Shown: piece by piece, positions 48,739 through 51,413 of the stretch
How positions within the stretch are numbered: the first letter of the stretch is position 1
Layout of the letters: each line of letters begins with the position of its first letter
Assembly (NCBI RefSeq): GCF_000337535.1
Contig: NZ_AOIP01000032.1
Span: 1-64,000, forward strand
Source: Natrialba aegyptia DSM 13077
GTDB lineage: Archaea; Halobacteriota; Halobacteria; Halobacteriales; Natrialbaceae
DNA length: 64,000 nt
Direction: 5' to 3'
Program-made: the position numbers and the translations under genes
Notes under the pieces: generated by a model
Database searches by the model: none
Seen by the model: the letters and a program-made list of their open reading frames with translations, nothing else
Told to the model about the DNA's origin: nothing

Positions 48739-48756
48739 GCTAAAATATATTTTAGC
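48739..48756. promoter_or_regulatory. 18-bp perfect AT-rich palindrome, likely TATA box of the proteasome pair
   Basis: gctaaaatatattttagc reads the same on both strands. Centred 51 bases before the beta-subunit ATG, it would place a transcription start near 48774, leaving a leader with a gagga ribosome-binding word ahead of the ATG. A symmetrical TATA box could also be a regulator site. Confidence 0.55.
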
Positions 48757-48798
48757 TACCACCTATTCCGACGGGGACCCTCGATTCTCACGAGGATA

Positions 48799-49464
48799 AT
48801 GCACGGGACAGACTCCGACGGAATCATCACGACAGGCACGACGACGGTCGGCCTCGTCGGCGCGGACGGCGTCGTCCTCGCAGCCGACAGCCGAGCGAGC
48901 CTCGGCGGCCGATTCGTCACGAACCGCACGGCCCGGAAGGTCGTCCCCGTCGACGACCGAACGGCGCTCACCTTCGCCGGCAGCGTCGGCGACGCCCAGT
49001 CGTTCGTCCGCCGCCTCCGCGCCGAACTCGCGCTGTACGATATGGATCACGAACCCGGCGCGTCGGTCGACACCGCGGCGACGGTCGCCGCCGATCTCAT
49101 CCGCCGCGACGGAACTCCTCAACTCGAACTCGTTCTGGGCGGGGTCGCTCCCGAATCGACCGTCTACCAGATCGACCCCGCTGGCGGTGTTATGGACGCA
49201 CCGATCGCCGCCAGCGGGAGCGGGATGCAACTCGCCTACGGCTACCTGGAAGACGCCTACGACCCCGAACAGTCGGTTGCGGAACTCCGAGCCGTCGCCG
49301 CGATGGCCGTCCGAAACGCGACCGAGCGCGACACCGCCAGCGGCGACGGCATGACCGTCGCGACGATCACCGCAGACGAACTCGAACGCGAGCAGTACGA
49401 CGGCATCGAACGCGCCGTTTCCGCCGCTACCAGCCAGCCCACAGACTCGGAGGTGGCCCGATGA
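48799..49464 (+). CDS. psmB: proteasome beta-subunit paralogue
   Basis: 221 residues. A short propeptide (MHGTDSDGIITTG) precedes the catalytic threonine of TTTVGLVGADGVVLAADSRA. With Thr as residue 1, Asp17 and Arg19 are kept, and the active-site lysine appears as K34 after a one-residue insertion in GGRFVTNRTARK. The Gly-Ser-Gly of SGSGMQ and GDGMTVATI are kept too, so an active peptidase is predicted. It self-processes and degrades unfolded proteins inside the 20S barrel. The stop overlaps the alpha-type gene by four bases. Shorter than typical haloarchaeal PsmB. Confidence 0.92.
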   Translation: MHGTDSDGIITTGTTTVGLVGADGVVLAADSRASLGGRFVTNRTARKVVPVDDRTALTFAGSVGDAQSFVRRLRAELALYDMDHEPGASVDTAATVAADLIRRDGTPQLELVLGGVAPESTVYQIDPAGGVMDAPIAASGSGMQLAYGYLEDAYDPEQSVAELRAVAAMAVRNATERDTASGDGMTVATITADELEREQYDGIERAVSAATSQPTDSEVAR

Positions 49465-50345
49465 ACGCGAGTTCACGCCAGCAAGCCTACGACCGCGGGC
49501 ACACGATTTTCTCTCCTGACGGCCGGCTTTACCAGGTCGAGTACGCCCGGGAGGCGGTCGAGCGCGGCTCGCCGAGCGTCGGCGTCGTGACGAGCGAGGG
49601 CGTCGTCCTCGCGGCGCGCAAGCGCGTTCGGTCGCCGCTGCTCGAGCCGGATTCGGTCGAAAAGATCCACCGCGTCGACGATCATCTCGCCGTCGCGACC
49701 GCCGGCCACGCCGCCGACGCGCGCCAACTCGTCGACGCGGCCCGCAAGCGCTGTCAGCAGCATCGCCTGCAGTACGGGGAACCGATCACCGTCTCGGTCC
49801 TCGCGAGCGACCTCGCGGATCACATCCAGGAGCAGACCCAATCTGGCGGGACGCGACCGTACGGGGCTGCGGTGCTCGTCGGGGGTGTCGATCCAGGCCC
49901 GGGCCCGAGTCCGGACCCGAGTCCCAATCCGGATTCCTCCCCCGCCTCCGACAACCGATCCGCCGACGAAATCGAGCCCGAACCCGAGCACGAGTCGGTC
50001 ACGGACCGGACCGCACAGCCGGCACTCTACGAGGTCGATCCGGGCGGCACGTTCTACGGCTGGCGCGGAACCGCCATCGGCGACGGTACCGCCGAGATCC
50101 GATCGTTCCTCGAGACTGAACTCGGTGGCGGCGATTCCAGTGAAACGCAAGCCTTGACCCGGGATCACGGGCTCTCGATCGCTCTCGACGCACTCGCAAC
50201 CACGGCCGCGGACGACCGCCCGCTCTCACCGACGACGGTCACGGCTCGCGTTCTCGGACCCGAACCGGAATCGGAATCGAGTTCGGGACAGTCGACGCCA
50301 GTCGGCGACGACGAACTCGAACGGATACTCGACGCGCTCGAATAA
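49461..50345 (+). CDS. psmA: proteasome alpha-subunit paralogue with Pro/acidic insert
   Basis: 294 residues. The alpha N-terminus is intact: QQAYDRGHTIFSPDGRLYQVEYAREAVERG, in two family blocks, forming the gate, and RSPLLEPDSVEKIH with the pocket lysine follows. Between the strand ending LVGGVD and LYEVDPGGTFYGW lies an insert of about 42 residues (145-186) rich in Pro, Asp, Ser and Glu, absent from usual PsmA. The C-terminus adds a further disordered acidic tail and lacks an obvious HbYX-related feature, as expected for alpha rings. Coupled to the beta gene, so a dedicated alternative 20S particle is likely. Confidence 0.9.
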   Translation: MNASSRQQAYDRGHTIFSPDGRLYQVEYAREAVERGSPSVGVVTSEGVVLAARKRVRSPLLEPDSVEKIHRVDDHLAVATAGHAADARQLVDAARKRCQQHRLQYGEPITVSVLASDLADHIQEQTQSGGTRPYGAAVLVGGVDPGPGPSPDPSPNPDSSPASDNRSADEIEPEPEHESVTDRTAQPALYEVDPGGTFYGWRGTAIGDGTAEIRSFLETELGGGDSSETQALTRDHGLSIALDALATTAADDRPLSPTTVTARVLGPEPESESSSGQSTPVGDDELERILDALE

Positions 50346-50384
50346 CACGACACGGCGTCGTCACGCCACGTTTACCGCTTTCAC

Positions 50385-51413
50385 TTATTCTACCGTTTCT
50401 GCCGTTTCCACCGTCTCCGCCGTCTCCGCTGTTGCCCGTTGCGTCTCGATCACGTCCACTCGTTCATCGACGTACAACGCGAGCACCGAGTCGTCGAGTT
50501 CAACCACGACGCGGACGGCGAGCGGGTCCTCCGAGAGCACCGTCTCGGCCCACTCGTGGCCGACGTTCCAGATCGGGCGGTCGCGCACGTCCCGGTCGTG
50601 ATCGTGGTAGAACGAGACGACGGCCGGGTGCGAGAGCAACGAGAGCGCGACGGGCGCACGCAGCGTCATCCCGCAGCGCGAACAGCTGAACTCGGCCTGG
50701 ACGTGGTCGGTGTGCTCGGCCGGGAGCAGGTCTTCGGTCGCCGGCGAGAGCGTCGCGAGCCGAGCATCGACCGCGCCGCTGCAGTCGGGACAGACGCCGT
50801 CGCGCACGAGCGAGAGCCGGTGTCTGTGGTGGCGGTCGAAGGCGGCCGGAAACGCCGCGCCGTGGGAGTCGAGCCCGGCGGGCGGAAAGCCGAGCCGAAG
50901 GAGCCGCCGGTCGCAGTGCTCGCAGCGCACCGTCACTCTGTTATCGTTCGCCTGCGCCGTCAGCGCCGCCCGGCTACAGAACGGACAGTCGTCGTCGAGT
51001 TCGGTCGGGGGATGATCGACCCGCTGGGTGTACGTTCCGGTGGCGATCGCTCGCGCGATCCGCTCGCCGGCGTAGGTGAGTTCGTAGCCCTCACCGCCGT
51101 CCTCGGCACCGGACTCCACCTTTCGGAGGTACGGCCCGACGAGTTCGTCCAGGTGATAGGCGAATCCGGCGGTGGTGTCGACCTCGGAGGCGTCAAAGAG
51201 CGCCGAGAAGGTGGGCGTCGAAGGCGTGGATTCAGCGTGGTCTCCGTCGTCGCTCTCGGCGGTGGTGTCCCCGTCGCTGAACTCGAGCATCGTCTCGAGA
51301 ATCCCCATCCGGATCTCGTTGCCGAGCGCCTGGAAGGCGTCGCTCGGGTCCGAGACGCGGTCGCTGGGCTCGGGGGCGGCGATCGGTAATTCCTCTCCGT
51401 CCTCTGCGGACAT
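50385..51413 (-). CDS. ArsR-like HTH protein with zinc ribbons
   Basis: 342 residues from the ATG at 51411-51413 (MSAEDGEELPIAAP). An N-terminal winged-helix begins with DAFQALGNEIRMGILETML and TAGFAYHLDELVGPYL; ELTYAGERIARAI ends the domain. Then two zinc-ribbon pairs: CPFCSRA/CEHCDRR and CPDCSGA/CSRCGM, and a C-terminal domain. This is a haloarchaeal regulator family (DUF7351-like by recollection). The last 16 residues are a TAETVE-type repeat coded by 9-base units. Target unknown. Confidence 0.8.
   Translation of the reverse strand: MSAEDGEELPIAAPEPSDRVSDPSDAFQALGNEIRMGILETMLEFSDGDTTAESDDGDHAESTPSTPTFSALFDASEVDTTAGFAYHLDELVGPYLRKVESGAEDGGEGYELTYAGERIARAIATGTYTQRVDHPPTELDDDCPFCSRAALTAQANDNRVTVRCEHCDRRLLRLGFPPAGLDSHGAAFPAAFDRHHRHRLSLVRDGVCPDCSGAVDARLATLSPATEDLLPAEHTDHVQAEFSCSRCGMTLRAPVALSLLSHPAVVSFYHDHDRDVRDRPIWNVGHEWAETVLSEDPLAVRVVVELDDSVLALYVDERVDVIETQRATAETAETVETAETVE

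Follow-up and report, generated by a model that had tools for sequence, protein, structure and literature searches.

The window, a stretch of 64,000 nucleotides of Natrialba aegyptia DSM 13077, carries two genes for 20S proteasome subunits, preceded by a palindrome and followed by a convergent gene, here called F1. The beta subunit gene psmB2 (48799-49464, plus strand) encodes 221 amino acids and matches PF00227 with an E-value of 1.9e-44. The alpha subunit gene psmA2 (49461-50345, plus strand) encodes 294 amino acids and matches both PF00227 and PF10584, the alpha N-terminal signature. As originally predicted, the reading frames share 4 bp (49461-49464) in an ATG/TGA overlap. The psmB2 product begins with a propeptide of 13 amino acids, followed by Thr1, and retains Thr1, Asp17, Arg19, Lys33, Ser129, Asp166, and Ser169. 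All the active-site residues expected beforehand (Thr1, Asp17, and Lys34) were located, Lys33 being residue 34 in haloarchaeal numbering. Judged by these residues, psmB2 is a catalytically intact, predicted threonine protease. At S1 residue 45, psmB2 has Phe, and the majority of canonical betas have Met or Leu. In psmA2, the alpha signature YDR...PDGRLYQVEYA is present and Y10, D11, R12, and K68 are invariant; K68 presumably corresponds to the lysine conserved in the pocket for ATPase tails. The AlphaFold model of psmA2 has the proteasome fold, with a pLDDT of 81.

Both products score below the NCBIfam equivalog cut-offs for the standard archaeal subunits, psmB2 with 182.8 bits against 224 for TIGR03634 (beta) and psmA2 with 238.4 bits against 287.35 for TIGR03633 (alpha), and are therefore divergent paralogs rather than standard PsmB and PsmA. 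The low score of psmA2 is partly due to a loop insert; with the subfamily model NF003075, it scores above the cut-off. A search of the same genome for other psmA and psmB genes found canonical copies on other contigs (G000:C8 and G000:C9), so that psmB2-psmA2 is a second set and not the main proteasome. The linkage of the two genes had also been taken as a sign of a second particle, on the premise that haloarchaeal psmA and psmB are unlinked. The genes of Haloferax volcanii are unlinked. The general premise does not hold, as alpha-to-beta adjacency occurs in seven other genomes (G012, G014, G015, G026, G029, G030, and G035), and linkage alone was rejected as an indication of a second particle.

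Among named species, N. taiwanensis and N. asiatica are the nearest relatives. The pair is present in all seven Natrialba genomes examined, and beta-to-alpha pairs are also found in other genera. Trees were built from 63 alphas and 57 betas; in them, the 15 pair members from Natrialbaceae group into clades with support of 100/98 (alpha) and 100/99 (beta). In a larger, quickly built beta tree, two label changes are needed to divide 85 pair betas from the other 38. Deeper placements are unsure owing to long branches. Between close Natrialba species, dN/dS is 0.09-0.26 for the pair versus 0-0.05 for the canonical genes. By these sequence comparisons, the pair is old and under purifying selection. 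Its faster evolution relative to the canonical genes, its patchy distribution, and one broken beta frame (L205) might be expected of a redundant duplicate heading for loss. This reading is hardly credible in view of the purifying selection, the conservation of the operator over many genera, and the catalytic residues, which are kept in 85/85 aligned pair betas, a count that left out four betas with first-hairpin insertions or a broken frame.

Some divergent beta-like sequences were encountered along the way. The apparently broken psmB2 frame at L205 (G380) may reflect a pseudogene or an assembly error. A lone, very divergent beta-like protein at L081 (G020:C1:2426838-2427407), seemingly lacking Asp17 and Lys33, is possibly an inactive paralog. 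At L064 (G010:C3:14017-14616), there is an extra lone beta paralog in a genome that also has the canonical beta and the pair. Weak extra beta-like matches of about 30% identity in G033, G036, G037, G038, and G040 are perhaps HslV-like or belong to another proteasome-fold protein.

The loop insert of psmA2, rich in Pro, Asp, Ser, and Glu, comprises approximately residues 145-185 (49893-50015, plus strand), as delimited by alignment, loop lengths, and low pLDDT. The loop between the RPxG and DPxG motifs measures 18 amino acids in 41/42 canonical haloarchaeal alphas and about 57 in psmA2; the extra residues that had been noticed are thus real, about 39 by this comparison, and are not shared by haloarchaeal alphas in general. 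The canonical psmA of the same genome, with 253 amino acids, also lacks the insert. Among linked alphas, the loop ranges from 17 to 66 amino acids in 73/76 (two scored 8 and one was unmeasurable), and in the majority of pair alphas the insert is small or absent. Its composition is Pro/Asp/Ser/Glu rich in the species group of the window and Gly/Ser rich in other Natrialba, where three of the four Gly/Ser-rich loops contain an Arg/Lys stretch. The loop is hypervariable. In the AlphaFold model, strands 136-144 and 186-192 enclose the insert, whose block pLDDT values of about 51-56 suggest that it is probably disordered. It had been proposed that the insert could alter access of the cap or of substrates; it would then be the main distinguishing feature of a specialised particle, a view consistent with a real insert in a surface turn. 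Such a role is highly improbable and found no support, as the loop differs greatly in length and composition from one alpha to the next, the insert is nearly or wholly missing in most pair alphas, and disorder is predicted. Variability and disorder also ruled out a conserved functional domain. The insert is treated here as a tolerated, quickly changing surface loop, the feature of the locus that matters least.

The palindromic operator and the promoter of psmB2

The strongest and newest part of the locus is the palindrome together with the downstream regulator gene. The 18-bp perfect palindrome GCTAAAATATATTTTAGC, listed without strand at 48739-48756, had been reported in the promoter and was confirmed there; dinucleotide shuffles of the window gave no copy of it, even when 3 mismatches were allowed. 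It is an instance of the dyad GCTAA-N8-TTAGC, and the palindrome or the dyad is conserved upstream of psmB in 98 loci read across the Halobacteriales. The exact palindrome occurs in 59/392 genomes of the order, with psmB directly downstream in 58/58 contexts read, and the 16-bp core with at most one mismatch occurs in 81/392, mostly as a single copy. Flanks and proteins have diverged among loci, and the palindrome is retained. The shuffles, the psmB context, and the near-single occurrence per genome rule out a chance AT-rich sequence. Seven genomes with one-mismatch matches (G100, G130, G172, G234, G237 on contig 2, G279, and G341) had no psm gene near the match, and these matches look like chance. 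A general proteasome promoter element was also excluded, the dyad being present in 0/84 upstream regions of canonical psm genes.

Half-sites are invariant over the 98 loci, and the inner positions show no compensatory change, which favours recognition as DNA rather than RNA. A hairpin in RNA is further disfavoured by the distance from the start, the gap between the dyad and the first in-frame start being 34-37 bp in 66 of the 95 loci scored and 42-43 bp in the window. In 21 sites reached via the F1 gene, GCTA and TTAGC are nearly invariant and the middle drifts, sometimes to GC; for the degenerate dyads among them, the best-matching site in a 330-bp stretch was chosen, which introduces some bias and leaves the start distance unaffected. 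A relaxed form of the dyad was found once in each relative bearing the pair, versus 0-7 occurrences of a reversed control pattern, with one extra copy in two Natrialba genomes (G001 and G004). Apart from that extra copy, no sign of a broad regulon was seen. The additional relaxed dyad, GCTAAACCGAGTTTTAGC (G001:C4:52389-52406 and G004:C26:77575-77592), could possibly be a second target or be due to chance.

Directly downstream of the palindrome lies a TAACA-like plus TTATCC-like stretch, here TACCACCTATTCC (48757-48769, plus strand), the presumed BRE/TATA of the operon. The columns just downstream of the dyad are conserved in 44 and in 21 aligned promoters. Judged by spacing, TACCACCTATTCC is probably a weak BRE/TATA and psmB2 probably leaderless. 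Since the dyad lies just upstream of the BRE/TATA expected of a leaderless gene, its position would favour an activator, with a repressor as a possible alternative. The palindrome is itself AT-rich and close to the start, and could be conceived as a special core-promoter element, a TATA/BRE variant read by particular TBP or TFB paralogs. This is very unlikely, as its centre drifts, partly to GC, with the dyad ends kept, a separate TATA-like stretch is present downstream at the expected distance, and the dyad occurs at one operon only.

The convergent gene F1

F1 (50385-51413, minus strand) encodes a winged-helix/zinc-ribbon protein. Its winged-helix domain, DUF7347 (PF24038, E-value 3.6e-20, residues 23-123), lies at 51045-51347 on the minus strand, and its DUF7351 domain (PF24042, E-value 6.8e-51, residues 140-321) at 50451-50996 on the same strand. 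The winged helix is also visible in the secondary structure of the model. The DUF7351 domain contains eight invariant cysteines in two sets of four (C143, C146, C164, C167 and C208, C211, C244, C247). Winged-helix regulators of the MarR, HxlR, and ArsR types bind palindromes as dimers. In fold comparison, F1 resembles the DNA-binding domains of MarR/HxlR regulators, such as QsrR-DNA (4hqe) and MepR-DNA (4lll), with a probability of 1.00 and marginal E-values of only about 0.05; it differs from these types in its additional DUF7351 zinc-ribbon domain. A sequence search with F1 against the PDB gave no match. With NF033788, the curated model of ArsR/SmtB metalloregulators, relatives of F1 score 14-17 bits, where the cut-off is 55, and the F1 of the window is not among the matches listed.

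In 24/24 loci of about 11-12 kb each, F1 is the sole neighbour shared besides the pair, always downstream and convergent. A phosphoglucomutase-type gene, MoaC, and other neighbours are not conserved among loci and were discarded as partners. A profile search of the 392 genomes gave 88 F1 orthologs (E-value at most 1e-99), clearly separated from paralogs (at least 1e-79), and in 87 of these 88 genomes psmB2 is on the same contig stretch; in G378, F1 is present and no psmB was found within the 15.6 kb read. All 61 palindrome-F1 pairs measured are convergent on the same contig, 54 of them at most 2.5 kb apart; the largest distance is 13.6 kb, and F1 is at least 5 kb away in G151, G325, and G080. 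An F1 ortholog accompanies the exact palindrome in 55/59 genomes, compared with 33/333 genomes without it, a strong association whose figures overstate independence because the genomes are related. The four exceptions are G011 and three genomes of one family with truncated or undetected F1.

From adjacency and co-occurrence, we infer that F1 binds the dyad. That indirect link would also suit a different reading, in which another conserved factor binds the dyad and F1 is linked otherwise, e.g., because its product interacts with the proteasome. In G011, G071, G107, and G139, the dyad is kept and F1 is truncated, broken, or undetected. Such a factor is nevertheless unlikely, as the fold of F1 is that of a DNA-binding protein, no other neighbour is conserved, and one family retains only the winged helix, which would suggest that DNA binding is the essential function. 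Binding by F1 itself is therefore preferred.

Individual F1 genes depart from the common form. The match at L017 (G011) covers part of F1 and is interrupted by a stop, which may reflect a pseudogene or an assembly error. At L154, L155, and L156 (family f12), F1 has about 120-210 amino acids and consists of the winged helix without the DUF7351 zinc ribbon. No F1 was detected beside the psmB2 locus of G071.

Proposed regulation and relation to known proteasomes

Positions 48739-51413 can be read as one module, made up of an operator, an alternative-proteasome operon, and F1 as a transcription factor devoted to that single operon, an interpretation considered probable from the sequence comparisons. 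F1, probably as a dimer, would bind the dyad GCTAA-N8-TTAGC about 37-52 bp before the probably leaderless start, just upstream of the weak BRE/TATA, and would switch the psmB2-psmA2 operon alone, presumably by activation. When switched on, the operon would yield a beta2 predicted to be competent and an alpha2 whose gate region is standard; either by themselves or together with canonical subunits, the two would build an alternative core particle. It is speculated that the DUF7351 cysteines convey a zinc or redox signal to F1. Such a signal would agree with findings in H. volcanii, where hypochlorite tolerance is linked to alpha type (PMC6267482); one family has an F1 without the cysteine domain. 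That haloarchaea possess an inducible alternative proteasome with its private single-operon factor and operator is thought somewhat likelier to be right than wrong.

The original prediction of a dedicated second 20S particle stands as regards the second set of genes; its exclusiveness is questioned by the operator, which precedes a lone beta in several genomes, so that mixing with canonical alpha is possible. Within the same module, beta2, with or without alpha2, could act mainly in mixed particles with canonical alpha and beta, in the manner of the immunoproteasome. At L157, L158, L159, L172, L178, L184, and L186, loci of family f5, a beta2 without a linked alpha lies alone between the operator and F1, and H. 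volcanii combines alpha1 and alpha2 with one beta (PMC6267482). Against this, alpha2 is directly downstream in most genomes, and both subunits diverge jointly, with fixed differences from the canonical ones. Predominantly mixed particles are a real, if somewhat less than even, prospect. L202 of family f5 also has a lone beta at such a locus, and first-hairpin insertions are found in the betas of L184, L186, and L202.

In eukaryotes, Rpn4 and Nrf1 exert dedicated transcriptional control of proteasome genes, and the immunoproteasome betas are conditional alternative catalytic subunits. The module proposed here resembles these systems in dedicated control and conditional catalytic subunits, and it differs from Rpn4 and Nrf1 in that F1 is not homologous to them, a single operon is concerned instead of a regulon, and the promoter is of the archaeal type. 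If correct, the model would describe an archaeal counterpart, in logic, of dedicated proteasome gene control and of the stress-dependent swapping of catalytic subunits. We know of no transcription factor or operator specific to archaeal proteasome genes, and searches of open-licence papers found no report of either, nor any paper on DUF7351. F1 would thus be the first protein proposed as a dedicated regulator of proteasome genes in archaea.

The 20S of H. volcanii contains alpha1, alpha2 (PsmC), and beta in several particle types, and the alpha type affects stress tolerance (PMC6267482). Paralogous core subunits are common to both haloarchaea; H. volcanii has a single beta, whereas the window has an additional beta and alpha in one operon, served by an operator of its own and a candidate regulator. 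The same arrangement, an alpha plus beta operon besides separate canonical genes, was described in 2012 in the same genus for Natrialba magadii, with the 20S operon Nmag_0514-0515 and the separate genes Nmag_3313 and Nmag_3351 (PMC3403918). Nmag_0514-0515 is very probably the ortholog of psmB2-psmA2. The passages found in that report list the genes and do not mention an operator, a regulator, an order-wide spread, or the insert, and the search of open-licence papers likewise gave no report of an operator, regulator, or order-wide module. The parts are of known kinds and their combination appears to be new. With a sharply defined 18-bp site, a single target operon, and a genus in which the operon is known, the module is a concrete candidate, and makes it testable under which conditions many haloarchaea use their second proteasome and why they have kept it. 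A second psm set with its own operator and adjoining F1 occurs in about a quarter of the relatives sampled. The whole module is also carried by a plasmid of Halomontanus rarus (NZ_CP119800.1), in whose annotation F1 appears as an ArsR family regulator and psmB2 (L220, 1707-2594) as 'proteasome subunit alpha', the latter likely a misannotation.
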